A stretch of 64,000 bases of DNA from Gemmatimonadota bacterium (GTDB taxonomy: Bacteria; Gemmatimonadota; Gemmatimonadetes; Gemmatimonadales; GWC2-71-9), in assembly GCA_003222195.1 (NCBI GenBank), contig QHVB01000024.1:124001-188000 (forward strand), given 5' to 3'. This document shows, in pieces, positions 22,145 to 37,453 of the stretch. A model generated the notes under the pieces. It had not been told where the DNA came from. It did not search any database and saw only the letters and a list, made by a program, of their open reading frames with translations. A program made the translations under genes and the position numbers. Every line of letters begins with the position of its first letter. The stretch's first letter is position 1.

Positions 22145-23607
22145 CGATCGTCGGCAGCGGCTTTGCCGGCTCGCTGCTCGCCCGCATCCTCGCGGTCCAG
22201 GGACATGGTGTCGCGTTGCTCGAGCGCGGCACGCACCCGCGTTTCGCGATCGGCGAGTCGAGCACGCCGCTCGCCAACCTCACGCTGGAGCGGTTGGCGC
22301 GCCGCTACGGTTTGGGCGATTGCTACGATCTCGCGGCGCACGGCCGGTGGATCGCGCGCTTCCCCGAGCTGCGGCGGGGGCTGAAGCGCGGCTTCACGTT
22401 CTATCGGCACCACGCGGGACGTCCCTTCGCCAATGCCGGATTGCGGTCGGAGCGGCTCCTCGTTGCCGCCAGTCCCAACGATCATGTCGCCGACAATCAC
22501 TGGCTGCGGGCCGATGTCGACCATCATTTCGTGCGCGCTGCCATCCAAGCGGGCGTAGAGTATCGAGACCGGGTCGAGGTGACGCCCGACACGCTCAAGG
22601 CCCTGCACGTCGATTTCGTCGTCGATGCGTCCGGACCCGGCGGGTTTCTGGCACGCCAGCTCGCCATCCCATCGCGGCTAAACCGGATGCACACGCACGC
22701 CGGCCTGCTGTTCAGCCACTTCGACGGCGTGCGGCTCATGCCCGACGTCGTGCCGGGGCTGCCAGCAGGCCCCTACCCGGATGACTGGGCGGCGGTGCAT
22801 CACATAATAGAGGAAGGGTGGCTCTACTCGCTGCGGTTCGACGACGGCGTTACCAGCGCCGGCTTCCTGCTGCGGGACCGGGTGCCGGGAGCCCCGGAGG
22901 AAATGTGGCGGCACCTGCTGCGCCGCTACCCCACGATCGGCGCGCTGTTCGGCGACGCCAAACCGCTCTTTCCTCTCAGCTACAAGCCGCGGATTCAGCA
23001 CCGGCTGGCGCGTGCCACCGGCCCCGGCTGGGCGATGCTGCCTCACGCCTTCGCGTTCGTGGATCCGCTCTTCTCGACCGGAATCGCCTGGAGCTTGCGC
23101 GCCATCGAGCGCCTGGCGCTCAGTTTCGAGAACGGATCCGTTCCTAGCGAGCGGGACCTGGCCCGTTATGAGGCGCAACTGAGTGGTGAAGCCGATCAGA
23201 TCGATTGGCTCGTCGCTGGCGCCTATCATGCGATGGCGCGGTTTGATCTCTTCGCGGCGCAGGCGATGATCTACTTTGCGACGGTGTCGTTCGCGGAGGT
23301 CAACCAGCGCATCCATGCCACCGAAACCGCCGCGTGGTCCGGATTTCTGGGTGTGGGAGACTCGCGTCTAGGCGGCCTACCGCGCGCGAGCCTGCGGCGG
23401 TTACGCCACGCGCGCACGCGCGAGGACCGGCGCGAGTTCGTCAGCTGGGTAACCAGGAGCATCGCACCCAGAAATGTCTGCGGCCTTGCGAACCCTGCGA
23501 CCCACGGTCTCTACCCCGTCGATTTGGACATGCTCGTGCAGCGCCATGCGGTGCTCGGCATGAGCCGCGAGTCGCTCGTCAGCGCTCTTCCCGCGCTCCG
23601 GGCTTGA
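22135..23607 (+). CDS. FAD-dependent oxidoreductase, flavin halogenase-like
   Basis: A 490-residue flavoprotein. It starts at GTG 22135 with the Rossmann motif VAIVGSGFAGS (GxGxxG at residues 7, 9, 12), then FAIGESSTPLANLTL, the GESxxP motif of tryptophan-halogenase-type enzymes, and FVDPLFSTGIAWS, the conserved halogenase C-terminal motif. The WxWxIP motif of classical halogenases is absent (WLYSLRF is at that place), so halogenation is unproven and hydroxylation or oxidation is equally possible. LKRGFTFYRH holds a Lys that might play the catalytic role. It is coupled to the radical SAM gene by overlap and ends in a 29-base convergent overlap with the next CRTAC1-like gene. Confidence 0.82.
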   Translation: MRVAIVGSGFAGSLLARILAVQGHGVALLERGTHPRFAIGESSTPLANLTLERLARRYGLGDCYDLAAHGRWIARFPELRRGLKRGFTFYRHHAGRPFANAGLRSERLLVAASPNDHVADNHWLRADVDHHFVRAAIQAGVEYRDRVEVTPDTLKALHVDFVVDASGPGGFLARQLAIPSRLNRMHTHAGLLFSHFDGVRLMPDVVPGLPAGPYPDDWAAVHHIIEEGWLYSLRFDDGVTSAGFLLRDRVPGAPEEMWRHLLRRYPTIGALFGDAKPLFPLSYKPRIQHRLARATGPGWAMLPHAFAFVDPLFSTGIAWSLRAIERLALSFENGSVPSERDLARYEAQLSGEADQIDWLVAGAYHAMARFDLFAAQAMIYFATVSFAEVNQRIHATETAAWSGFLGVGDSRLGGLPRASLRRLRHARTREDRREFVSWVTRSIAPRNVCGLANPATHGLYPVDLDMLVQRHAVLGMSRESLVSALPALRA

Positions 23608-26600
23608 TGATCCGGGTGTTGTACTCGCGCAAGTAGCGCTGACGCGCGGAATCGGAGGGGTAGGCGTCGCCTGGCGCGTACGGGTATGAACTGACCGCGT
23701 GGTAGGGCAGCGGGTCGATCGTCGTGCCGTGCGCGGTGTTCAAGTCCGAGTCTTTGATCCAGCCATCACTGTACAGCAGGAAGGTGCGCGTCCACCCGGC
23801 CGGGAGAGCCGGTGCCGCCCCGGCGTCGAACTCCGCCGTGGTCTCGTCCCCCGGCACCATCACGACGTACCGATCGTCGGGACGGTCGAGCAGCGGCGTG
23901 ACGTCGCCGAAGCGCGTGGCGGCGCCGGTGATGGCGCGCCACGGCGATTCCTTGCTGACGTCATCGTACGCGAACCACTGCGGACCGTAACGCCCGCCCC
24001 GGCGGTACATGCGCGAGAAGCCGCGGTAATGTAGGAGTCCGGAGACTGGAGCCAGGACCTTGAGATGTAGACTCCCGACTCCCGGCTCCTGACTCCCGGC
24101 TCCGATGTCCTCCGCCACGAACGCCTGGTCCCAGTAGATCTGCATGTTCGTGCGGAGCCGCACGTGATGATCGCGCGTCGGGAAAATTCCGGCGAGATCG
24201 ATCACCACCGTCTTGTCCTTGCCCGCGGGGAAGCCGATCGCACCCCGCGAAACCCATCGGCCCCCCCCCCGCGCGTCGCGCACCTCGAGCACGGGCAGCT
24301 CGGCGCGCGCGTGCTGCTGCTGCGACAGCGCGACATTGATGCTCGCATCGGAAGGGAAGATCCAGCCGCGCAACAGGAGCAACGTCCCGGGCGCGCCGGC
24401 GGCCGCGTCGAGGTCGAGGATCAGCTCATGCGGTTCCGTCAGCCCTTGATACCGGAGCGGCGTCAGATTCGAGACGTAGCGATAGTCGTGCTCCCGCAGG
24501 TCGTCCAGCACATCGGTTCCGTGGCCGTCCACGGCCGAGAGGGGCGGTCGGGGGTGGATCGTGGGGAACAGTCGCAGTCCATTCGAGCCAGATGCCGGAG
24601 GGAACCGTTCGTCGACAAAAACCTCCACGGAGTCGGGATGGTCGACCGCCACAAGCCGCAGCTGATCGAGATACGCGGTCTCCCACAGCTCTTCAGTGAC
24701 TTCGAGAACGTACCGGCCATTTCGCGCCTGCAGCGCTTCACCTGGTATCCGCACGTATTCCCGTGATGCGCCTGCGGGAGCATACGCCGCCGCGCCCTTC
24801 CCCATGATTCCGACCGGCATGCCGAGCGCGCTGCGCCACATGATGTCGGTGATGAACCGGAACTGCTTCCCGTCCCAGGTATAGAGGAAAGCGCACGAGC
24901 CTTTGAGCTGCTGCCGCTCGAGCACGTCCTGGTCGGTTCCCGGGAAGTAGATGGTCTGCGGCACGCCGTTCGTCCACTGCACGCGCAGCACATCGGCCTT
25001 GAAGTGACTGCCCAGTCCAAAGGGCGTCACGCGACTGGTCACGACGCGCGTCTGATAGAGCTCGCCCGCGCGGACCTCGAGCCTCGAGCCGATGCCGAAC
25101 GTGTTGTTCTTGCCGCTGCCGGTTCGGAGCGCCGTGAGCTGCACCTGCATGCCGAGGTGGGCGTTGCCCCCGTCGTTGCGCAGCAGGTGGACGCCGTGGC
25201 GGTCGCCGAAGAGGATATCCTGATCGCCGTCGCCGTCGAGGTCGGCGACCAGCAGCGGCCCAATCGAATCGTGCTGCACCTCATGCGGCAGTACGAAGCT
25301 GGCATCCTCGAAGCGTTTGCCACCATCGTTGTGAAATAGCCGCATGCCCTGCGGTCCGGCGATGAGGAGATCGAGCCAGCCGTCGTTGTCGTAGTCGACG
25401 AATGCCACCGAGCCCACGGCAGCACTGCGCAACCGATCGAGCACCGCCGCCGAGCGAGTGTCGCGCGTAAACTTGCCGCTGCCATCGTTATGCCAGAGGC
25501 CGCCCTCGCTACCCCCGACGAAGAGATCCAATGCGCCGTCGTTGTCGTAGTCGCCGATCGCGACCGGACCGGAGCCTCGGATCGTGTCGGCGGTACGCGT
25601 GAAGCCACGCACCGCGTCGTTGAGAAACAGACCATCGCGGCCGACCTGGCTCGTGACGAACACGTCGGTGCGCCCGTCGTCGTCCACATCGCCGAAGGCG
25701 GCATCGGTTCCGCCCTGGACGATCCCGTCAGCGTTGGGAGCCAGGGTGAAGGTGCCATCGAGGTTGTTGCGATAGACCGCGAGCGAGTTCCCGCCGACGA
25801 GCAGCAAGTCCAGATCGCCGTCGTGATCGAGATCGACGAACAGCGCGCGCCGGGCACCGTCGACGTCTCGCACATGCGCGGCTGTGGTGACATCCTCAAA
25901 CTGCCGCCCTTCGCGGTTGTGCAGCAGGTAGCCGCGGCCGTCGGTTCCGATCACGAACAGATCGAGCCAGCCGTCGTCGTCGTAGTCCGCGAATGTCGCG
26001 CTCATCGCGCCGGCCGGAAGCGGGAGGGTGACCCGCTCGCCGGCATCCGCGACAAAGCCCTTCCGGAGCGTGTAGAGCCGAACATTGGATGGCGGCCACG
26101 CAATCAACAGATTGTCTTCGCCGTCGTTGTCGTAGTCGCCCAACGCCAGCGCCGTGGGCGCGGCTCCCCCCCCGAGGTCCGGCAACCCGCTTTCGCCGGT
26201 CACATCGGTGAAGTGAATGCCTGCGTTGGCGGCGGGCGCGATGCCGCGCATCGTGATGAGCGATGCCGGATTGAACGCGAGCACCGGCCGTCCGACCAGC
26301 GGCCCTTCCGTCCAGTCCACCTTGGCGAGCGCCGCTTGATAGGGTGCCGTGACTTCCATGAGCCGCAGGAAACGATCGAGCTCGGTCCTGGCAGCGGTCA
26401 GACGCCTGACCCGCAGCGCCGCGATTGCGGCGTCGAGGTGCGGCTTCGCTTCGCGCGGCGGCTCGGGACGGAGCTGGCGCACGTCTTCGAGATACCGCAG
26501 CGTGCTGTCGCTCTCACCCAGGGTGAGCAGCACGTCCGCCAGCTTGAGACGCACGGCGAGATTGGCGGGCGAACGCTCCAGCACCTGGCGCAACCGCTCG

Positions 26601-27058
26601 GCGTAGCGCTGCTGCCCGCTGTCCCCGCCGCCGCCCGCCCCGCTCTCACGCTCGAGCTCGGCCAGTCCGTAGAGCGCGCGCGGGTCAGAGACGAGCGCCA
26701 GCAGCTTGCGCGCCTCATCGGGCCGGTTGGTCAGCGCATAGAGCTTCGCCAGCGAGAGCGCGACGTCGACATTCGCGGTATCGAGCCGCCGCGCCCGCTG
26801 CAGCTGCGACTCGGCGTCGCCGTAGCGGCCGGCTCGGAGGTAGGTCAGTCCGAGGTTCGCGTACCCGAGCGGGTCCCGAGGCGCGAGCGCGATCACTTTG
26901 CGGAATTCCTGCTCTGCTTCAGCGAGGCGCCCGCGCTGCAAATCGTCGAGGCCGACTGTACGGGCGGTGATCAGCGCGCCCTGATCGATCGGCTTTTCGC
27001 GGCAGCCGATCGTGACGAAGAGCAACGCCGCCGCCGCAAGCGAACGGAAAGTTTTCAC
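23579..27058 (-). CDS. TPR plus FG-GAP/ASPIC-UnbV giant lipoprotein
   Basis: A 1159-residue lipoprotein (start GTG 27058, lipobox FVTIGC). Residues 25-240 are TPR-like (GRLAEAEQEFRKVIALAPRDPLGYANLGLTYLRAGRYGDAE); residues 280-620 are FG-GAP/VCBS propeller repeats (DYDNDGEDNLLIAW, DLDHDGDLDLLLV, DVDDDGRTDVFV); an ASPIC/UnbV domain lies near 640-710; the C-terminal 400 residues are beta-rich (GSCAFLYTWDGKQFRFITD, then a Pro/Asp-rich region). TPR-ASPIC proteins are common in soil bacteria with TonB systems, function unknown. A heptamer-repeat insertion (24034-24104) encodes the odd stretch GAGSQEPGVGSL. C10 and C8 tracts occur at 24261-24270 and 26166-26173. It is divergent from the next giant with only 16 bases between the starts. 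Confidence 0.88.
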   Translation of the reverse strand: MKTFRSLAAAALLFVTIGCREKPIDQGALITARTVGLDDLQRGRLAEAEQEFRKVIALAPRDPLGYANLGLTYLRAGRYGDAESQLQRARRLDTANVDVALSLAKLYALTNRPDEARKLLALVSDPRALYGLAELERESGAGGGGDSGQQRYAERLRQVLERSPANLAVRLKLADVLLTLGESDSTLRYLEDVRQLRPEPPREAKPHLDAAIAALRVRRLTAARTELDRFLRLMEVTAPYQAALAKVDWTEGPLVGRPVLAFNPASLITMRGIAPAANAGIHFTDVTGESGLPDLGGGAAPTALALGDYDNDGEDNLLIAWPPSNVRLYTLRKGFVADAGERVTLPLPAGAMSATFADYDDDGWLDLFVIGTDGRGYLLHNREGRQFEDVTTAAHVRDVDGARRALFVDLDHDGDLDLLLVGGNSLAVYRNNLDGTFTLAPNADGIVQGGTDAAFGDVDDDGRTDVFVTSQVGRDGLFLNDAVRGFTRTADTIRGSGPVAIGDYDNDGALDLFVGGSEGGLWHNDGSGKFTRDTRSAAVLDRLRSAAVGSVAFVDYDNDGWLDLLIAGPQGMRLFHNDGGKRFEDASFVLPHEVQHDSIGPLLVADLDGDGDQDILFGDRHGVHLLRNDGGNAHLGMQVQLTALRTGSGKNNTFGIGSRLEVRAGELYQTRVVTSRVTPFGLGSHFKADVLRVQWTNGVPQTIYFPGTDQDVLERQQLKGSCAFLYTWDGKQFRFITDIMWRSALGMPVGIMGKGAAAYAPAGASREYVRIPGEALQARNGRYVLEVTEELWETAYLDQLRLVAVDHPDSVEVFVDERFPPASGSNGLRLFPTIHPRPPLSAVDGHGTDVLDDLREHDYRYVSNLTPLRYQGLTEPHELILDLDAAAGAPGTLLLLRGWIFPSDASINVALSQQQHARAELPVLEVRDARGGGRWVSRGAIGFPAGKDKTVVIDLAGIFPTRDHHVRLRTNMQIYWDQAFVAEDIGAGSQEPGVGSLHLKVLAPVSGLLHYRGFSRMYRRGGRYGPQWFAYDDVSKESPWRAITGAATRFGDVTPLLDRPDDRYVVMVPGDETTAEFDAGAAPALPAGWTRTFLLYSDGWIKDSDLNTAHGTTIDPLPYHAVSSYPYAPGDAYPSDSARQRYLREYNTRIIKPGAREER
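24034..24104. repeat. Opposed heptamer repeats inside TPR/ASPIC gene
   Basis: Three units GGAGTCC, GGAGACT, GGAGCCA (24034-24054) face five units GACTCCC, GACTCCC, GGCTCCT, GACTCCC, GGCTCCG (24070-24104) on the same strand, so the two blocks can pair as a hairpin about 15 bases apart. On the minus strand they encode a Gly/Ser/Pro-rich insertion. A related heptamer run lies between genes at 63213-63240. Confidence 0.75.
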
Positions 27059-27060
27059 GC

Positions 27061-27066
27061 TATACT
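27061..27066 (+). promoter_or_regulatory. Candidate -10 element (TATACT) for the 27075 gene
   Basis: TATACT ends 8 bases before the TTG start at 27075, the spacing expected of a leaderless transcript, and no Shine-Dalgarno sequence fits between. The opposite strand gives AGTATA upstream of the divergent GTG 27058. No convincing -35 was seen; experimental start mapping would decide. Confidence 0.3.
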
Positions 27067-27074
27067 GGCGCCCC

Positions 27075-30000
27075 TTGCGAAGACTTCTTGCGTTTACGCT
27101 CGCCCTTGCCGGTTGTCACCCTTCGCCCGCCGAGCCGCCGCTGTTCGTGGCTGTCGCGCCCGAGTCGAGCGGCGTGACGTTTGCCAATAGACTGCCGGAG
27201 GACTCCGCGTTCAACATCGTCAGCTATTTGTACTACTACAATGGCGGCGGTGTGGCGGCGGGCGACATCGATGGCAACGGACTGATCGACCTCTATTTCG
27301 TATCGAACCTGGGCCGAAACCACCTGTACCGCAACCTGGGCAACTTCAAGTTTGAGGACATCACCGATCGCGCCGGCGTCGCCGACTCAGTCGGATGGAA
27401 GAGCGGCGTAACGATGGCCGACGTCAACGGCGATGGGCGGCTCGACATCTTCGTCTCAGGCGTCGACTACCTCGGCATGCACGGCCGCAACGTGCTGTAC
27501 ATCAACAACGGCGACGGCACGTTCACCGATCGCACCCACGAGTTTGGCCTCGACTTCGCCGGATACTCTACGCAGGCCGCGTTCTTCGACTATGACGGCG
27601 ATGGCGACCTCGATATGTACCTGCTGAACAGCTCCACGCTCACCGAGCGTGCTGCGAGCCCCAGCAAGAGCCGCCTGGTTCGCAACGCGAAAGCCGGCGA
27701 CCGGCTGTATCGGAACGAAAGCGGCCACTTCGTGGACGTCAGCGCGGCGGCCGGCATCTATGGCGGCGTGGAAGGGTTCGGCCTCGGTGTGGTCGTCAGC
27801 GACGTCAATCTCGACGGTTGCCCCGACATCTACGTCGCCAATGATTTCCCGGAAAACGACTTTCTCTATCTCAACAATTGCAACGGGACTTTCACCGAGT
27901 CGATTGCGCAAGCCACCGGACACACGAGCCGGTTCTCGATGGGCGCGGATGCCGCGGACTTCAACAATGACGGCCGTCCGGACATCGCCGTGCTCGACAT
28001 GCTGCCCGATAGCGAGCGGCTCCTCAAGACGGCATCACCCGCCGAGAGGTACGAGCTTTTCAACCTGAAGCTCGAGGCTGGCTATCACTACCAGTACGCG
28101 CGCAACACGCTGCAGCTGAATCGTGGCGTTACGGAAGGCAAGCTCCGCTTCAGCGACATCGGGTTGCTCGCCGGAGTCGCGGCCACCGACTGGAGTTGGG
28201 CGCCGCTGTTCGCCGATTTCGACAATGACGGCTTCAAGGACCTGTTCGTCACGACGGGCATCTATCACCGCCCGAACGACCTCGACTACATCGCGTCGTT
28301 GGACAGCATCCCGGCTGGCACACAGCCTCCCGCTGCCCGCCTGATCGCGAAAATGCCTCATGTCCCGCACCCCAACTACCTGTTTCGCAACAACGGCAAT
28401 CTGACGTTCATCAATGTGGCTGCTGCCTGGGGGGTCGGCGCCGCCGGTTTCTCGAACGGCGCGGCGTACGTGGACCTCGACAATGACGGCGCCCTCGATC
28501 TCGTCGTCAACAACCTCAACGCGCCGGCGGCGATCTACCGCAACCGCGTGCGGGAGCTCGACCCCGCGACCCACCACTATCTCACGGTGGCGCTGCGGGG
28601 TGCCGGCGCCAACACGGCGGGAATCGGTGCGAAGGTCATGGTCGCCGCGGGTGGTCGCCACCAGCTTGTCGAAGTGATGCCGACGCGCGGCTTCGAATCA
28701 GCGGTTGACCCGCGCCCCCACTTTGGGTTGGGTGCGACATCGCGGATCGACTCGCTGACGGTGATCTGGCCCGATCGTCGCCAACAGGTGCTCGAGAACG
28801 TAACGGCCGACCGCACGATCACGTTGTCGCAATCCGACGCGCGCAGCCATCCCCCCATCCGCCCATCCGCCCATCCGCCGCTGTTTTCGGACATCACCGA
28901 TCGGGTGCCCGTCAGCTACAAGCACAAAGAGAACGCGTTCTTCGACTTCAGGCGCGAGCCGCTGATGCCCCATCTGCTCTCGACGGAAGGCCCGGCGCTC
29001 GCGGTCGGCGACGTCAACGGCGACGGCCGCGACGACATCTACGTTGGCGGCGGCAAGTGGCAAGCGGGCGAACTGTTCGTGCAAGACGCGAACGGCCGCT
29101 TCCATGCGATGGCCGAGCCGGCCTTCACAGCCGACAGCCTGCACGAGGACGTGGCCGCCGTGTTCTTCGATGCCGACGGCGATGGCGATCTCGATCTCTA
29201 CGTGGTGAGCGGCGGGAACGAGTTCTGGGAGGGTGAGCCGCTGCGCGACCGGCTATACCTCAATGACGGCCGCGGCCACTTTGTGCGCGCCCCCTCCGCG
29301 CTGCCGGACTTCTTTCACAATGGCTCGTGTGCCGTGGCGGGCGGGAATTTCCTGTTCGTGGGCAGTCGCGTGGTCGCGCGGCATTACGGTGTGGCGCCGC
29401 GCAGCTATCTGCTGGAGAACGATGGCCACGGACACTTCCGCGACGTCACCTCCCAGATCGCCCCAGGACTCGATTCAATCGGCATGGTCACCGCGGCGAC
29501 GTGGGTCGATTACGACGGCGACGGCAAGCTCGACCTGATCGTCGTCGGTGAATGGATGCCCATTCGTGTATTCCACCAGGAGAACGGCCGCTTCGTGGAT
29601 CGTACCGAGCAAGCCGGCTTCGCGGGCACGAACGGCTGGTGGAACAGCATCCAGGCGGTGGATCTCAACGGCGACGGCCGGCCCGACCTCGTGCTCGGCA
29701 ACCTCGGATTGAATTCCTTCGTCCGGGCCTCTCGCGCCGAGCCGGCGCGGCTGTATGTCGGCGATTTCTTCGACACCGGCTCGCTGGCGCAGATTCTCAC
29801 GTCGTACCGCCAGGAAGTCAGCTATCCGCTGGCCGGCCGCGACGAGCTGCTGCAGGTGATGCCAGCATTGCGCAGCCGTTTCCCCACGCACGCTTCGTTT
29901 GGCGCGAGCCGCATCGAAGACATCATTCCCCGGACCGCGTTGCGAAAGGCGCGCGTGCTCCAAGCCGATCAGTTCGCCAGCGCGATCGCGCTGAATCGTG

Positions 30001-30350
30001 GCGACGGCACGTTCGAGCTGCGCCCCCTGCCCGTCGAAGCGCAGTTCGCCCCGGTGTACGCATCGCTGGCCGGCGATTTCGACGGAGATGGTAAGACCGA
30101 TCTGGTGGTCGCGGGAAATTTCTACGGCGTCACGCCGGTCGAGGGTCGCTACGACGCCTCGTACGGGCTGTTCTTACACGGCGACGGGCACGGTCAGTTC
30201 GCTGCCGTGGATATGGAGCGCAGCGGCCTCGCGATCGAAGGCCAGGTGCGGCACCTGGCGCTGCTGAAGCGCGCCACCGGCGATCGGTTGATCGTCGTCG
30301 CGCGAAACAACGACCGTTTGCAGCTAGAGCAGATAGCCGCGCCGCATTAG
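27075..30350 (+). CDS. CRTAC1-like FG-GAP/ASPIC-UnbV lipoprotein, paralogue of 13955 gene
   Basis: About 1091 residues with start TTG 27075, which yields the compact lipoprotein signal peptide LRRLLAFTLALAGC. The architecture copies the 13955 gene: VTFANRLPEDSAFNIVSYLYYYNGGGVAAGD, repeated DxNGDGRxDIY/FV calcium loops, an ASPIC/UnbV domain near 510-590 (GIGAKVMVAAGGRHQLVEVMPTRGFESA), an octamer-encoded Pro linker, then a second propeller (DVNGDGRDDIYVGGG) and a C-terminus ending DRLIVVARNNDRLQ. It should be anchored to a membrane and bind calcium; the ligand is unknown. A start at ATG 27012 would overlap the divergent gene and spoil the signal peptide. The last 27 bases overlap the AhpD gene. 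Confidence 0.87.
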   Translation: MRRLLAFTLALAGCHPSPAEPPLFVAVAPESSGVTFANRLPEDSAFNIVSYLYYYNGGGVAAGDIDGNGLIDLYFVSNLGRNHLYRNLGNFKFEDITDRAGVADSVGWKSGVTMADVNGDGRLDIFVSGVDYLGMHGRNVLYINNGDGTFTDRTHEFGLDFAGYSTQAAFFDYDGDGDLDMYLLNSSTLTERAASPSKSRLVRNAKAGDRLYRNESGHFVDVSAAAGIYGGVEGFGLGVVVSDVNLDGCPDIYVANDFPENDFLYLNNCNGTFTESIAQATGHTSRFSMGADAADFNNDGRPDIAVLDMLPDSERLLKTASPAERYELFNLKLEAGYHYQYARNTLQLNRGVTEGKLRFSDIGLLAGVAATDWSWAPLFADFDNDGFKDLFVTTGIYHRPNDLDYIASLDSIPAGTQPPAARLIAKMPHVPHPNYLFRNNGNLTFINVAAAWGVGAAGFSNGAAYVDLDNDGALDLVVNNLNAPAAIYRNRVRELDPATHHYLTVALRGAGANTAGIGAKVMVAAGGRHQLVEVMPTRGFESAVDPRPHFGLGATSRIDSLTVIWPDRRQQVLENVTADRTITLSQSDARSHPPIRPSAHPPLFSDITDRVPVSYKHKENAFFDFRREPLMPHLLSTEGPALAVGDVNGDGRDDIYVGGGKWQAGELFVQDANGRFHAMAEPAFTADSLHEDVAAVFFDADGDGDLDLYVVSGGNEFWEGEPLRDRLYLNDGRGHFVRAPSALPDFFHNGSCAVAGGNFLFVGSRVVARHYGVAPRSYLLENDGHGHFRDVTSQIAPGLDSIGMVTAATWVDYDGDGKLDLIVVGEWMPIRVFHQENGRFVDRTEQAGFAGTNGWWNSIQAVDLNGDGRPDLVLGNLGLNSFVRASRAEPARLYVGDFFDTGSLAQILTSYRQEVSYPLAGRDELLQVMPALRSRFPTHASFGASRIEDIIPRTALRKARVLQADQFASAIALNRGDGTFELRPLPVEAQFAPVYASLAGDFDGDGKTDLVVAGNFYGVTPVEGRYDASYGLFLHGDGHGQFAAVDMERSGLAIEGQVRHLALLKRATGDRLIVVARNNDRLQLEQIAAPH
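28848..28879. repeat. Octanucleotide tandem repeat in linker of second CRTAC1-like gene
   Basis: One CATCCCCC unit and three CATCCGCC units head to tail encode the linker HPPIRPSAHPPL. It is at the same domain boundary as the octamer run at 15803-15834 in the paralogue. Confidence 0.85.
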
Positions 30351-30911
30351 GTTCTGCGCCGAGGCCGCGTACCCGCCCTTGTCCGGCAGGTGCCAGCCCA
30401 GCGCATCGGCGAGCCGGTCGTAGATGTTGAAGAGCGCGCAAACGTTGATCGCGTCCTCGATCGCCGCATCGGAAAGTCCCACCGCGCGGAGCGGAGCGAC
30501 ATCGGCGGGGCGCACCTCTTCCGGCCGCAACGTCAGTTTTTCGAGAAAGCCGAGCGCCGCGCGCAGCTTCGCGTCGAGCGGCGCGCTGCGCCAGTCATCG
30601 ACCACTGCTTTGACGAACCGGTCATCCTTCAGGGCCAGCGCCGCGACCGCGGCGTGAGACTCCGTTCAGAAGACGCATTGATTGAGCTTTGAGGTGAAGG
30701 CGGCGAACAGCTCGCGTTCGCCGACGCTCCAGTCCGAGGGGCCGCGCATCACCGCCTGCGTCCATTCGCACTGCGGCCGGCCGAAGAACTCGGGCCGATA
30801 CATCAGGGTCTTCACGACATCGGGAACGCGGCGGCCGCTCAGCAGCCGGATGAGCGCGAGCTTGACCTTTTGCGGCAGCCGGTGGCGGTGTTCGACCGCG
30901 CGGACGCGCAT
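30324..30911 (-). CDS. AhpD-like peroxidase-type protein, probable selenoprotein (CxxU)
   Basis: Read through one in-frame TGA (30666-30668), this is a 195-residue AhpD/carboxymuconolactone-decarboxylase-fold protein. The active-site motif SKLNQCVF-TGA-TESHA has Cys79 and the TGA at 82, exactly where family members carry the second Cys of CxxC with His three residues on. Coding character and family similarity continue without a break after the TGA (VAALALKDDRFVKAVVDDW to NLMRRGYLL). Seventeen bases after the TGA is a 6-bp stem (30654-30639) with a GGUC loop, matching bacterial SECIS design. Cys-Sec would act in thiol peroxidase chemistry. ATG 30911 overlaps the stop of the upstream CMD gene. 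If the TGA were a true stop, the gene would be a broken pair of 81 and about 95 residues. Confidence 0.8.
30639..30654 (-). promoter_or_regulatory. SECIS-like hairpin downstream of in-frame TGA
   Basis: In the mRNA, CGCCGC and GCGGCG form a perfect 6-bp stem capped by GGUC. The loop begins 17 nt after the UGA. The E. coli fdhF element also shows GGUC in its apical loop, about 18 nt after UGA, which supports SelB-dependent selenocysteine insertion here. Confidence 0.65.
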
Positions 30912-31234
30912 CAGTCCGGTTCCTCGCCGCGCAGCGCGGCCATCCCGCGCTCCAAGCGGTACAGCGCCGCGCCGACCGTTGCGGCGACCGTGATCTCGAA
31001 GATGCTGTCGTCGGAATGACCGGCCTGCTGCAGGGTGGTCACGTCGGCATCCGAAACCTTGTACGCGTGACGTGCGACCGTGTCCACGTAGTGCTCGAGC
31101 GCCTGCGGGAGCCCATCCCTGGCGCTCGACTTTCTTGCCCGTTCCAGAACGGCGCGGCGTAGCGATTCGGAAGTATCGCCCGCCCCGTTCAAGACGGCGT
31201 TCGTGAGGCGTTCATGAAAAGATCGATAACGCAT
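30911..31234 (-). CDS. Small CMD/AhpD-like helical protein
   Basis: A 107-residue helical protein starting at ATG 31234 (MRYRSFHERLTNAVL). The second half, YVDTVARHAYKVSDADVTTL then QAGHSDDSIFEITVAATVGAALYRLE, matches the C-terminal helices of carboxymuconolactone-decarboxylase/AhpD proteins, but there is no CxxC, so it is not itself a thiol peroxidase of the usual kind. Its stop overlaps the start of the Sec-type AhpD gene (TGATG). This points to one operon and possibly a heteromeric complex in which the second protein supplies the redox centre. It diverges from the SusC gene at 31349. Confidence 0.75.
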   Translation of the reverse strand: MRYRSFHERLTNAVLNGAGDTSESLRRAVLERARKSSARDGLPQALEHYVDTVARHAYKVSDADVTTLQQAGHSDDSIFEITVAATVGAALYRLERGMAALRGEEPD

Positions 31235-31348: not shown

Positions 31349-34333
31349 ATGCACCGTTCGCATTACCCCATGTGCGCGCTCCTGGCACTGACCTGGACCG
31401 CAGCACTCGCCGCTCAGCAACCCACCGGTACCATTCGCGGACGCATCACCGACAACACCACACAGCAACCGATCGCAGGCGTGACCATCACCGTGGGCAA
31501 CCGCAGCGCACAGACCCACGACGATGGCCGCTTCACGATCAGTGGTGTCCCCGCCGGGAGTGATCTGCTCCGGGCCAGAATGATCGGCTACGCACAGATC
31601 AACCAGCCGGTCATGGTTGGCAGCGGTGAGACCGTCGCGGTCGACCTGGCGCTGACGGCGCAGGCAATCGGATTGTCGGAAGTCGTGGTGACCGGCTACG
31701 GCCAGCAGCGCGCCGGCAACATCACGGGCGCGGTGACCGCCGTGGGCGACTCCCAGTTCAACACCGGTCGAGTCATCAGCCCCCAAATGCTCATTCAGAG
31801 CAAGGTGGCGGGCGTGCAGGTCGTCGACAACAACGATCCTGGCGGTGGCCTCTCCATCCGAATTCGTGGTGCTACGTCGGTGAATGCCAGCAGCGAGCCG
31901 CTGTACGTCGTCGACGGCGTGCCGCTCGGCAACGGCGCCGGCGGCGGGCTCTCCGCCGGACGCGACCCGCTGAACTACCTCAATCCGAACGACATCGAAA
32001 GCATCACGGTACTGCGCGACGCGTCGGCCGCCGCGATCTACGGGTCGAACGCGGCAAACGGCGTCGTGCTCATCACGACCAAGAGCGGCGGCACGCGTCA
32101 AAAGCCGCAGTTCGAGTACAACAGCAGCGCCTCGGCGTCATCCGTCACCCGGCTGCCCGCGATGATGAACGCGGCGCAGTTTGCCACCGCGCTGAACACG
32201 TATGCGCCGGCGCGTGACACGCTGCTGCTCGGCGCCAGCACTGATTGGTTCGGCCTCATCGACCGCACCGCATATGGCCAGGAGCACAACTTCGCGGTGA
32301 CCAACTCCACGAGCGATATGAGCTACCGCCTGTCGCTGGGGTATCTCAATCAGGACGGGATCATCCGCGCAAGCTCGACGAAGCGCGTGTCACTCGGGCT
32401 CAACTACTCGCAGCAGCTCTTCAATGATCGCCTCAACGTGCATACCAGCGTGCGCGGCTCGCGCGCGGTCGACCAGTTCACCCCAGGCGACGTCTTGGGC
32501 AACGCGGCGGCGATGGCACCGACCCAGCCGGTCCTCGACTCGTCGAGCACGACCGGCTACTGGGACTGGAAGACCTCGAACGCCGCGCCGAGTAATCCCG
32601 TGGCGAGTCTGACCTGGGCGCGCGACCATGGCACGACGTGGCGCAGCGTCGGCAACGTGCAGGCGGTTTATCGCGCGCCCTTCATCGAAGGGCTGACGGC
32701 CAACGTGAATCTGGGATATGACCTGGCGCGGGCCGACCGCACGACGTTCTATCCGAACAACCTCGCGGCCCAGGTGCGGCAGGGGCAGGGGTTGCTGTTC
32801 CTCGCCAACAACAGCCAGACGAACGAGGTGCTCGAGAGCTTTCTGGGCTACTCGCCGTCCCGTAGCTATGGACCGGGACGGCTCGACGTGGTCGGCGGTT
32901 ACTCCTACACGCAATCCCACGCGGAGTACCCGTCGCTCAGGGAGACGAGCCTCACAACGAACGTGCTTGGTGACAACGGGATTCCCGTGGCCGGCAACGT
33001 TCAGAACCGCCGCGACATCGTGGACTACAAGCTCATCTCGTTCTTCGGCCGGCTGAACTACAACATCAACGACCGCTACCTGGCGGCGTTCAGCGTGCGT
33101 CGGGATGGCTCGTCCCGGTTTGGACCGGGCAACCAGTGGGGCACGTTCCCCTCGGCGGCGGTCGCGTGGCGGATTTCCCAGGAATCGTTCCTGCAGGGCG
33201 TCGGCGGGTTGTCCGATTTGAAGCTGCGCGCATCCTGGGCCAAAACAGGCAATCAGGCCTTCCAGGATTATCTGCAGTATCCGACCTACACGTTCAGCGA
33301 TGGGCAGACGCAGGTGCAGTTCGGCAACGTATACACCACCACGATCCGTCCCAGCGCCGTCGACCCGAACATCCATTGGGAAAAGACGACCGCCTACAAC
33401 GTGGGGGCGGACTTCGGCTTCAGCAATCAACGCTTCAACGGCACGATCGACTGGTACACCAAAAGCACCAACGACCTGATCTTCTACATCCCCATTCCGG
33501 CAGGCACAAACCTCGGCAACTACGTCACCACGAACATCGGCAGCATGCGGAACCGGGGAGTCGAGTTCAGCCTGAACGCCGACGTGCTCAGGCACAGCGC
33601 GGCCGGACTGAGCTGGACCGCCTCGCTGACCGCAGCCCGCAATACCAACGAGCTGCTCGCCATCAACCCGAACAAGAGCGTCTCGAAGATCCTGACCGGG
33701 GGCATCTCAGGCGGCGTGGGAAACAACGTCGAGGTGCTCGAGCCGGGTATCCCGGTGAACTCGTTCTTCGTGTACCAGCAGCGCTATGACGCGAGCGGTA
33801 AGCCGATTTACGACGTCACCACGCCGACGAACATGTATGTCGACCAGAACGGCGACGGCATCATCAACGATTCCGACCGGCGCCCGTTCCACGATCCATC
33901 GCCGAAATGGATCCTGGGTCACTCGTCGTACTTCAACTACAAGCGCTTCGACGTCAGCCTGACGCTGCGGGCATACCTCGGCAACTGGGTCTATAACAAC
34001 GTGGCGTCCGCCAACGGCGCCTATCAGAACCTGACGGGCTCGGGAATGCCGAGTAACCTGCACACGTCGGTGCTCAAGACCGGCTTCGTCGTGCCCCAGT
34101 ACTACTCCGACTATTTCGTGGAGGACGCTTCGTTCCTCCGCATGGACAACATCACGCTCGGCTACGCCGGCACGTACCGGGGGCAGCAGTTCCGTCTCTT
34201 CGGCACGATCCAGAACGCATTTACACTCACCGGCTACACGGGCGTGGACCCGACGTCGGGCCTGAACGGCATCGACAACAACATCTATCCTCGCGCCCGG
34301 ACGATCAGCACCGGGCTCGACATCCGGTTTTAG
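31349..34333 (+). CDS. SusC/RagA-type TonB-linked outer membrane transporter
   Basis: A 994-residue receptor: signal peptide (ends LAAQ), carboxypeptidase-regulatory-like domain (GTIRGRITDNTTQQPIAGVT), plug (VVVTGYGQQRAGNITGAVTA, IRGATSVNASSEPLYVVDGV, YGSNAANGVVLITTKSGG) and a large barrel ending ISTGLDIRF. GAGAGG precedes ATG 31349. A TTGACA at 31273-31278 could be a -35, without a convincing -10. SusD follows after 13 bases, then an alpha-amylase overlaps the SusD stop, so alpha-glucan fragments are the likely cargo. It is a second system, clearly diverged from the SusC at 9091. Confidence 0.95.
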   Translation: MHRSHYPMCALLALTWTAALAAQQPTGTIRGRITDNTTQQPIAGVTITVGNRSAQTHDDGRFTISGVPAGSDLLRARMIGYAQINQPVMVGSGETVAVDLALTAQAIGLSEVVVTGYGQQRAGNITGAVTAVGDSQFNTGRVISPQMLIQSKVAGVQVVDNNDPGGGLSIRIRGATSVNASSEPLYVVDGVPLGNGAGGGLSAGRDPLNYLNPNDIESITVLRDASAAAIYGSNAANGVVLITTKSGGTRQKPQFEYNSSASASSVTRLPAMMNAAQFATALNTYAPARDTLLLGASTDWFGLIDRTAYGQEHNFAVTNSTSDMSYRLSLGYLNQDGIIRASSTKRVSLGLNYSQQLFNDRLNVHTSVRGSRAVDQFTPGDVLGNAAAMAPTQPVLDSSSTTGYWDWKTSNAAPSNPVASLTWARDHGTTWRSVGNVQAVYRAPFIEGLTANVNLGYDLARADRTTFYPNNLAAQVRQGQGLLFLANNSQTNEVLESFLGYSPSRSYGPGRLDVVGGYSYTQSHAEYPSLRETSLTTNVLGDNGIPVAGNVQNRRDIVDYKLISFFGRLNYNINDRYLAAFSVRRDGSSRFGPGNQWGTFPSAAVAWRISQESFLQGVGGLSDLKLRASWAKTGNQAFQDYLQYPTYTFSDGQTQVQFGNVYTTTIRPSAVDPNIHWEKTTAYNVGADFGFSNQRFNGTIDWYTKSTNDLIFYIPIPAGTNLGNYVTTNIGSMRNRGVEFSLNADVLRHSAAGLSWTASLTAARNTNELLAINPNKSVSKILTGGISGGVGNNVEVLEPGIPVNSFFVYQQRYDASGKPIYDVTTPTNMYVDQNGDGIINDSDRRPFHDPSPKWILGHSSYFNYKRFDVSLTLRAYLGNWVYNNVASANGAYQNLTGSGMPSNLHTSVLKTGFVVPQYYSDYFVEDASFLRMDNITLGYAGTYRGQQFRLFGTIQNAFTLTGYTGVDPTSGLNGIDNNIYPRARTISTGLDIRF

Positions 34334-34346
34334 GGGGGACGGAACC

Positions 34347-35918
34347 ATGAATCGCACGGTCAAGACATTCAGCGTTACCGCCGCCCTCCTGTGCTTCGCG
34401 GCAATGGGTTGCACGGACCCGACGGTAGCACCGAAGAGCAGTGTCAGCAGTGCCAACGTGTTCAACGATCCCAATTCGTATCGGGCGTTCCTCGCGAAGA
34501 TCTACGGTGGCCTCATCGTCACCGGCCAGCGTGGGCCCGACGGCAACCCGGACATCGCGGGCATCGACGAAGGGTTCGGCGAGTACCTGCGGTTGTACTG
34601 GTACTTGCAAGAGATGCCGACGGACGAGGCCGTGATCGGGTGGAACGATCCCGGTCTCCCCGACCTCAATACCGGACTCTGGGGCGCGGACAATAGCATG
34701 GTGAACGCGATGTACTACCGCGTCTTCTATCAGGTCATGCTCGCCAACGAGTTCCTGCGCCAAAGCACCGACGCCAAGCTCGACTCGCGCGGTCAGTTCG
34801 ACCCGACGCTTCGGACCAACGTGCATTTCTATCGTGCCGAGGCGCGGTTTCTCCGGGCCTTGAGCTACTGGCACGGCATCGACCTGTTCGGAAACATCCC
34901 GCTCGTGACGGAAGACGACCCGCTCGGCGCCACGCCCCCGAAGCAGGCGACGCGGGCCGACATCTACGCCTACGCCGTGAGCGAGCTCAACGACATCATC
35001 GGCAAGCTGCCGCCGAAGGGCCCGTCCACGTACGGCCGGGCGATCCCCGAAGCAGCACACATGCTGCTGGCCAAGCTGTATTTGAACGCCGGCGTCTACA
35101 CGGGGACACCGAATTACGCCGGCGCGCTGACCGAGGCACAAGCGGTCATCAACGCCGGATACACACTCCCGGCGAGCTTCCGGAGCAACTTCACGGCTGA
35201 CAACAACAACTCGCCCGAGCTCGTCTTCGTCGCGGCTCAGGACGGCCGGAGCACGCAGACCTGGGGCGGCATGACATTTCTGATCCACGCGGGCTGTGGC
35301 GGGAGCATGTCGGCCGCGAACTACGGCATCGACTACTGTTGGGGCGGCTACCGCATGAAGCAGCAGACCTACCGCCGGTTTGCCGCGGGCGACACCCGGG
35401 CCGCCTTCTTCTACACGGCGGGTCAAACCGATTCCGTCAGCGACCGCGGGGACTTCACCAAGGGGATCGCCGCACCCAAGTTCACGAACCTGAAGGCGAA
35501 CGGCGACACCGCACAGGCCAAGGGGATGGTCGACACCGACTTCCCAATCTTCCGGGTCGCTGACGCCTATCTCATCTACGCGGAAGCGAACATCCGGGGT
35601 GGTGGTGGCACCGCCGCGAACGCGCTGACGTATCTCAACGCCGTCCGGCAGCGCGCGTACGGAAACGCGACCGCGAACTTCGCCGCGCTGCCCCCGGTCG
35701 ACACGATCCTCGCCGAGCGCGGCCGCGAGTTACTGTTTGAAGCGTCGCGCCGCACCGACTTGATCCGCTTCGCCGTATTCACCGGCGGCACGTACGTTTG
35801 GGCCTGGAAGGGCGGCACGCCGGGCGGGTCGCCGCTGCCCTCGTTCCGTGACTTGTATCCGCTGCCGGCGAACGAGCTGATCGCCAATCCGAACCTGAAG
35901 CAGAACCCAGGCTATTGA
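34347..35918 (+). CDS. SusD/RagB-type glycan-binding lipoprotein
   Basis: A 523-residue lipoprotein (signal peptide with AAMGC lipobox). SusD landmarks are SSANVFNDPNSYRAFLAKIY near residue 35, EARFLRALSYWHGIDLFGNI near 168, MLLAKLYLNAGVYTG, and near the end IFRVADAYLIYAEANIRGGG with LAERGRELLFEASRRTDLIRF. It would sit on the outer surface as the lid of the SusC channel. ATG 34347 is 13 bases after the susC stop. Its stop TGA overlaps the TTG of the alpha-amylase gene (TTGA), linking binding, import and hydrolysis in one transcript. Confidence 0.93.
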   Translation: MNRTVKTFSVTAALLCFAAMGCTDPTVAPKSSVSSANVFNDPNSYRAFLAKIYGGLIVTGQRGPDGNPDIAGIDEGFGEYLRLYWYLQEMPTDEAVIGWNDPGLPDLNTGLWGADNSMVNAMYYRVFYQVMLANEFLRQSTDAKLDSRGQFDPTLRTNVHFYRAEARFLRALSYWHGIDLFGNIPLVTEDDPLGATPPKQATRADIYAYAVSELNDIIGKLPPKGPSTYGRAIPEAAHMLLAKLYLNAGVYTGTPNYAGALTEAQAVINAGYTLPASFRSNFTADNNNSPELVFVAAQDGRSTQTWGGMTFLIHAGCGGSMSAANYGIDYCWGGYRMKQQTYRRFAAGDTRAAFFYTAGQTDSVSDRGDFTKGIAAPKFTNLKANGDTAQAKGMVDTDFPIFRVADAYLIYAEANIRGGGGTAANALTYLNAVRQRAYGNATANFAALPPVDTILAERGRELLFEASRRTDLIRFAVFTGGTYVWAWKGGTPGGSPLPSFRDLYPLPANELIANPNLKQNPGY

Positions 35919-37453
35919 AGTCTGGATCCTCCGCCGCCGCCGCGATGCTGCTGCTGCTCGCGGCGGCGGGCTGTTCCCGGGAGCTGGCTGGACCGGCCCC
36001 GCAGCGGCCCGTGCTCGCGCCGGCCTACCGTCCGACTGGGCACATGGCCGCCGGCGACGTATTCGTCCACCTCTTCGAATGGCGGTGGACCGACATCGCG
36101 GCCGAGTGTGAAAACGTGCTCGGCCCGGCGGGCTTCACGGCCGTGCAGATCTCGCCTCCCGAGGAACACAGCATCGAACCGACGTACCCCTGGAGCGAAC
36201 GCTATCAGCCGGTGAGTTATAGCATCGCCCACAGCCGCTCCGGGACCGGCGCCGAATTCGGGGATATGGTGAATCGGTGCAAAGCCGTGGGCGTCGGGAT
36301 CATCGCGGACGCGGTGATCAACCACATGACGAATTACCCCAGTCCCGGACTCGGCAGCAACGGCACGGCCTACTCCAAGTACAACTATCCCGGGCTCTAC
36401 ACGGCCAGTGATTTTCACACGCCCTGCGCGGTGAACAACTATCAAAGCGCGGCCAACGTGCAGGATTGCGAGCTGCTGGGCTTACCCGACTTGAACACCG
36501 GGCTCGCGTCGGTACGCCAGAAGATCGCCGACTATTTGCTCACGCTCGCCCGTCTCGGTGTGGCCGGATTTCGCATCGACGCCGCCAAGCACATTCAGCA
36601 AGTCGAGCTCGATGATATTCTGGGACGCGTCAACCGCGCGCTGGCCGCCGAGGGCGGACCGTTGCCCTACGTTTTTCTCGAAGTTATCGGCGGCGCCGGT
36701 GAGGCCTTATCACCGCGCGACTACTTCGGCGAAGGCTACAGCTCCGGCGGCGGCGCCGACATCACCGAGTTCACGTTCACCGGCGTCGGCAACAAGTTTC
36801 AGAACCTGAATGGCGAGCACATCTCGCAGCTCAATCCCAATGGCACACCCGGCAACCAGTTCTCCGAGACGGCGTGGGGAATCATGCCTTCGGACAAGGC
36901 CGTGGTCTTTCTCGAGAATCACGACACCCAGCACCTGTGCGGCTTGAGCTACCGCGACGGCAATGTCTTCCGGCTCGCGAACGTCTGGATGCTGGCCCAG
37001 CCGTACGGTTATCCATCGGTCCTGTCGAGCTACGCATTCGATTGTCCCGACGGCAATGCGGTCGGCCCGCCATCGGACGCGAACGGCTGGACGATGGCCG
37101 TCACCTGTGCGTCGAGCCTGGAAACGGCCGCCAGGGGTCAGTGGGTGTGCGAGCACCGCGACCCCTCCATCCTGCGCATGGTGAGCTTCCGGCACGTCGT
37201 CGCCGGCACGAGCATCAACCACTGGTGGGATAACGGCGCGAACGCCATCGCATTCTCGCGCGGTGACAAGGGTTTTGTCGCGATCAATGACGAGACAACC
37301 AGTTTGGACACCACGATCAGCACCGGGATGGCCGCGGGGACGTACCTGGATTTGATTTCCGGAAATCCCGTGCAGCTCGACCCGGCCGGCTCCGTGCACC
37401 TCACCCTTGCCCCGAGATCTGCCCTTGCAATCGATACTGCGACTCGCCAGTAA
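35915..37453 (+). CDS. Alpha-amylase (GH13), lipoprotein
   Basis: A 512-residue GH13 enzyme. TTG 35915 overlaps the SusD stop and gives a lipoprotein signal peptide (AMLLLLAAAGC), suggesting surface or periplasmic anchoring. The four GH13 regions are present: DAVINH, GFRIDAAKH (Asp nucleophile), FLEVIG (acid/base Glu) and FLENHDTQ. The opening DVFVHLFEWRWTDIAAECEN and QISPPEEH are typical of the animal/Streptomyces-type amylases. It should cleave starch to oligosaccharides for the adjacent SusCD pair. The 3' end overlaps the acylase-like gene by 29 to 47 bases depending on that gene's start. Confidence 0.94.
   Translation: MKSGSSAAAAMLLLLAAAGCSRELAGPAPQRPVLAPAYRPTGHMAAGDVFVHLFEWRWTDIAAECENVLGPAGFTAVQISPPEEHSIEPTYPWSERYQPVSYSIAHSRSGTGAEFGDMVNRCKAVGVGIIADAVINHMTNYPSPGLGSNGTAYSKYNYPGLYTASDFHTPCAVNNYQSAANVQDCELLGLPDLNTGLASVRQKIADYLLTLARLGVAGFRIDAAKHIQQVELDDILGRVNRALAAEGGPLPYVFLEVIGGAGEALSPRDYFGEGYSSGGGADITEFTFTGVGNKFQNLNGEHISQLNPNGTPGNQFSETAWGIMPSDKAVVFLENHDTQHLCGLSYRDGNVFRLANVWMLAQPYGYPSVLSSYAFDCPDGNAVGPPSDANGWTMAVTCASSLETAARGQWVCEHRDPSILRMVSFRHVVAGTSINHWWDNGANAIAFSRGDKGFVAINDETTSLDTTISTGMAAGTYLDLISGNPVQLDPAGSVHLTLAPRSALAIDTATRQ

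Follow-up and report, generated by a model that had tools for sequence, protein, structure and literature searches.

AhpD-like selenoproteins with a CxxU active site have been described since 2005, from the Sargasso Sea and, as 'AhpD-like 1', from GOS (PMC1088965, PMC2398784, PMC13188914); proteins of this kind (COG2128 / TIGR01926) are known from metagenomes, as the original prediction for the present locus had stated. Gemmatimonadota members were not mentioned in the literature searched, two reviews included, a weak negative given that the search reached only a minority of subscription journals. In AhpD of M. tuberculosis and PA0269 of P. aeruginosa the proton relay follows the pattern E-x11-C-x-x-C-x3-H (PMC3141380). 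A knock-out of D. radiodurans DR1765 (PDB 6k40) is sensitive to H2O2, and its complementation needs the CxxC (PMC8945050).

The locus studied here lies in a window of 64,000 nucleotides, the whole stretch analysed, from the draft assembly of a soil Gemmatimonadota bacterium. An AhpD-like selenoprotein gene (TIGR01926 peroxid_rel / Pfam CMD) is found on the minus strand at 30324..30911 and encodes 195 residues, from an ATG at 30911-30909 to a TAG stop at 30326-30324. The sole in-frame TGA of these 195 codons is codon 82 (30666..30668, minus strand), the second position of the CxxU, in the context SKLNQCVF-U-TESHAAVA; without recoding, the ORF list breaks the gene into 81 and 93 aa. The proposed AhpD-fold frame broken by one TGA at the second Cys of its CxxC (NQCVF-U-TESH) was therefore recovered as described. 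The read-through protein scores 117.6 bits against the NCBIfam profile TIGR01926 ('peroxidase-related enzyme'; curated cut-off 81.8) and also exceeds the curated cut-off of Pfam CMD, and TIGR01926 is matched by each of the 32 aligned members. Eight positions are invariant in the alignment of 32 homologues (R66, E67, S74, C79, C/U82, H86, A110 and G145), and the catalytic set of the Sec protein consists of E67, C79, F81, U82 and H86. The AlphaFold2 model (pLDDT 94) has 6k40 as its best structural match (Z 21.7 over 181 residues) and reaches Z 10.8 against 1knc, so that the AhpD fold is found together with the relay residues E, C, C/U and H.

By its sequence the protein is a member of the known AhpD-like CxxU selenoprotein family, since such proteins have been reported from the Sargasso Sea onward. 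It shares with that family a TIGR01926 score above the cut-off, the CxxU, the existence of Cys homologues and the in-frame bSECIS hairpin; it differs from the family as described in that an AhpD-fold paralogue devoid of Cys is encoded alongside the Sec gene. The fold and the subfamily are also those of DR1765 (about 33% identity over the model), but DR1765 has a CxxC and no Sec, and no such partner is described for it in the text consulted (PMC8945050). With M. tuberculosis AhpD and PA0269 the Sec protein has the catalytic pattern E-x11-C-x-x-C/U-x3-H in common, whereas the second Cys is replaced by Sec and the third relay residue is Phe instead of His or Tyr. Two NCBIfam profiles of Sec-containing AhpD relatives, NF041238 (AhpD_rel_CFYUT) and NF053654 ((seleno)proteins), are matched weakly, with 44.9 of a cut-off of 175 and 22.9 of a cut-off of 310, respectively. 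The TIGR04029 and TIGR04030 families are encoded as a pair; the Sec protein reaches 62.7 bits against TIGR04030 (perox_Avi_7169), below the cut-off of 233.15, and the partner does not match TIGR04029 (CMD_Avi_7170).

Conservation of the TGA codon and its hairpin

The column of codon 82 holds either TGA or Cys in every homologue examined, and TGA in each of the close ones. The TGA is repeated in seven MAG loci that reach the site and is kept at 98, 89, 85 and 76% protein identity, with one independent MAG at 98%. A class-wide search gave a match in 86 of 149 genomes, most matches carrying the TGA (about 100 loci), and the same codon is retained in relatives as distant as 30-40% identity. Cys at position 82, which had been suggested as a check, is found in L048, in L124-L128 and in a Paraburkholderia homologue (L030); in L129 the Cys is present in a protein that lacks the first Cys of the CxxC. 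Some homologues appeared to carry two Sec codons. That reading was dropped, because in the two cases inspected (L130 and L131) the second TGA is the end of the frame. The claim that family-like sequence runs on in the same frame past the TGA is borne out by substitution rates: 3' of the codon dN is far below dS (0.07-0.25 versus 0.64-0.98; for example 0.074 versus 0.64 and 0.094 versus 0.85), and dN < dS also holds for codons 83-102, which lie 5' of any downstream start. Purifying selection acts on the codons that follow the TGA.

A bacterial SECIS hairpin, CGCCGC-GGUC-GCGGCG, lies inside the coding sequence at 30639..30654 (minus strand). It has a stem of 6 bp, a 4-nt loop (GGUC) and a folding energy of -10.8 kcal/mol, and satisfies all four published bSECIS constraints (PMC13188914), which agrees with the original view that its placement and loop are those seen in bacterial SECIS elements. 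The predicted hairpin and its GGUC loop were found, with one correction: the distance of 17 nt separates the UGA from the onset of the loop, and the stem begins at 12 nt. A lone hairpin is no more than chance would provide; what goes beyond chance is the conserved TGA together with the covariation. Where the coding sequence is as GC-rich and as full of Ala and Val as here, chance often yields such a hairpin in a single sequence, and when the peptide is re-coded synonymously, 20% of the versions pass the strict bSECIS test and 7% are equally stable. Across the window 3.7% of all TGAs pass the strict test. Folding of the single sequence was not significant (z = -0.1 for the 81-nt fold), and an Rfam scan of the hairpin region returned chance matches only.

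In 19 relatives all six pairs are formed in each sequence (100% paired) and the GGUC loop is invariant. Two compensated pairs occur among the 18 distinct sequences: at 16-29, 13 of them have GC and five UA; at 17-28, 14 have CG and four GU. The compensated pairs are non-synonymous, Ala87/Ala91 being changed to Ser/Glu in one clade and to Gly/Ser in another. The covariation score was reached in none of 500 shuffled controls and was lost when the partner columns were slid; the nine changed cells amount to few events, because the sequences are related. Most of the more distant homologues contain a hairpin that differs in sequence and still passes the bSECIS test, and neither of the two Cys homologues put to it has a passing hairpin. 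At this locus a requirement of the RNA has shaped the protein: the need for base pairing ties the changes at two amino acid positions to each other.

Selenocysteine machinery and alternative readings of the TGA

The genome was searched for the Sec machinery, as advised at the outset: selA (535 bits), selD (393 bits, with an in-frame TGA of its own, GAGUACK) and a tRNA-Sec (77.8 bits, anticodon TCA) are present, and selB is absent from the assembly, along with recO. Neither selB nor a SelB C-terminal domain was found in this 99.8%-complete assembly. The SelB-like matches were rejected, by length or by reading, as EF-Tu (about 400 aa), TypA, LepA and other translation GTPases. SelD (L018, C17:261399-262331) is itself a probable selenoprotein.

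The order in the relatives examined is recO, then selB, then a Clp ATPase gene. A search of the assembly with this region of a relative gave no true counterpart, and the Clp ATPase gene has only a paralogue-like DNA match of 74%. selB is present in 120 of the 149 class genomes, the congener included, and in six of eight near MAGs. Judged from these sequences, its absence most likely reflects an assembly gap, since recO, its usual neighbour, is missing too. In the relative G146 (L135) an AhpD-like Sec gene is located about 1.5 kb from selB (C4:455278-455700 and 457157-458203), and a near-identical copy of it occurs at C4:356524.

If the TGA were a true stop, the locus would be a split or decayed AhpD gene, whose first part would yield 81 residues and whose second frame would be translated separately from its own start. 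TGA does terminate other genes here, the partner being one of them, and a 93-aa ORF from a GTG at 30605 is available; yet the in-frame protein conservation of codons 83-102 precedes any such start, and the depth to which the TGA is retained, the Cys in its column elsewhere and the covarying hairpin make termination highly improbable. A misread TGC or TGT, conceivable for a window from a draft assembly, can be practically disregarded, because the independent MAG with 98% identity and about 100 class-wide loci carry the same TGA. It is also very unlikely that the selenoprotein gene is real and the UGA now stays undecoded following loss of selB in this strain. The lack of selB and of a SelB C-terminal domain in a nearly complete assembly would fit such a loss, but the missing recO and the paralogue-like Clp ATPase match indicate that the whole block is absent from the assembly; moreover, selA, selD and the tRNA-Sec are intact, and the Sec gene is free of decay. 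The reading of UGA-82 as selenocysteine is strongly supported, and the outcomes of the checks proposed originally either favoured it or could be explained.

The upstream partner and the proposed enzyme

The gene for a Cys-less AhpD-fold paralogue of 107 aa is located directly upstream of the Sec gene (30911..31234, minus strand), and its TGA stop overlaps the ATG of the Sec gene (ATGA). A coupled Cys-less CMD-type partner had been noted originally and is real. A start at GTG 31279 (122 aa) is an alternative, although the relatives favour the ATG. The partner is Cys-free in 15 of 15 sequences and has neither a CxxC nor a CxxU site. Profile comparison places residues 46-99 of the partner opposite 119-172 of the Sec protein (hhalign, E 2e-6), and 103 of the 107 residues of the partner model (pLDDT 90) are aligned to AhpD structures. 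The match to 3c1l (Z 10.6) stretches across chain residues 44-180, so about 34 target residues are skipped. Foldseek gave no E below 0.001 for the partner (E only 0.02), though the probability was 1.00 for AhpD chains. On sequence and model together, the partner is an AhpD-fold paralogue; the helix order of the model suggests that it appears to lack the helix bearing the CxxC...H and the next helix.

The partner occurs in nine of the 149 class genomes, always adjacent to the Sec gene, and this set coincides with the genomes of the nine highest-scoring Sec genes, which form one Sec clade. Outside the genus conservation is limited to the pair, whose short overlap is kept, and the flanks vary: FG-GAP/UnbV and a TonB receptor in the genus, a permease, an AbiEi-like gene and others elsewhere. 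No functional clue other than the pair itself came from the flanking genes examined.

Several further features were observed. Two large FG-GAP repeat proteins are encoded divergently with overlapping starts, at 23579-27058 (minus strand) and 27012-30350 (plus strand), and the latter gene converges with the Sec gene, their 3' ends sharing 27 nt (tail to tail). Beside the operon, a TonB receptor, a SusD-like protein and an alpha-amylase (31349-37453) likely constitute a glycan-uptake cluster. The short palindromic repeat GTAGGGGCGCAGCATGCTGCGCCCCTAC occurs at more than 40 places in the genome and is common to a related MAG; in L092 it is found at 900-980 and 1860-1930. Between the window (30914-31234) and L022 (2699-2998) the partners are 74% identical overall and the Sec genes 98%; the C-terminal halves of the two partners are nearly identical and the N-terminal halves divergent, for which recombination or an assembly chimera is possible.

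We consider it very probable that the locus is a two-gene operon, with the partner first, whose second gene encodes an AhpD-like selenoenzyme of 195 residues. At UGA-82, tRNA-Sec and SelB would insert selenocysteine, guided by the SECIS hairpin with its loop 17 nt downstream within the coding sequence. By analogy with the AhpD mechanism, U82 would correspond to Cys133, the peroxidatic residue in AhpD of M. tuberculosis, C79 would resolve the selenenyl-sulfide, and E67 and H86 would act as proton-relay residues. Since these four residues match that mechanism, the most likely activity of the Sec protein is peroxide reduction, with a thiol donor supplying the electrons. In the Sec clade the third relay position, which is His132 in AhpD and a Tyr in PA0269, is occupied by Phe81, which counts against this.

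The ATGA translational coupling and the strict co-occurrence suggest that the partner may join the oligomer of the Sec protein as a structural subunit without catalytic function, and from the sequences we infer a putative mixed complex of Sec protein and partner, an idea that had been envisaged originally and is strengthened here. Tentatively, and with slightly less than even confidence, we propose that the operon encodes an obligate hetero-oligomeric selenoperoxidase, in which the helix-less paralogue would be a structural or gating subunit. The enzyme could instead be a selenoprotein next to a paralogue that acts separately, for instance a regulator or a remnant, and not as a subunit. This is a realistic possibility rather than a probable one: it is favoured by the restriction of sequence homology to the C-terminal half of the partner, but is opposed by the conserved short gene overlap, by the Cys-free and conserved partner in 15 sequences, and by co-occurrence with the Sec clade in nine of nine cases, never without it in 149 genomes. 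To our knowledge, a pair of catalytic and pseudo-subunit has no precedent in the AhpD family. No such partner of AhpD-like selenoproteins was found in the literature searched, a weak negative within the journal coverage stated above.

That the Sec enzyme is paired with a putative non-catalytic paralogue can be put to the test. Finally, the locus adds a Gemmatimonadota-wide set of selenoproteins, whose genes ordinary gene calling truncates at the UGA.
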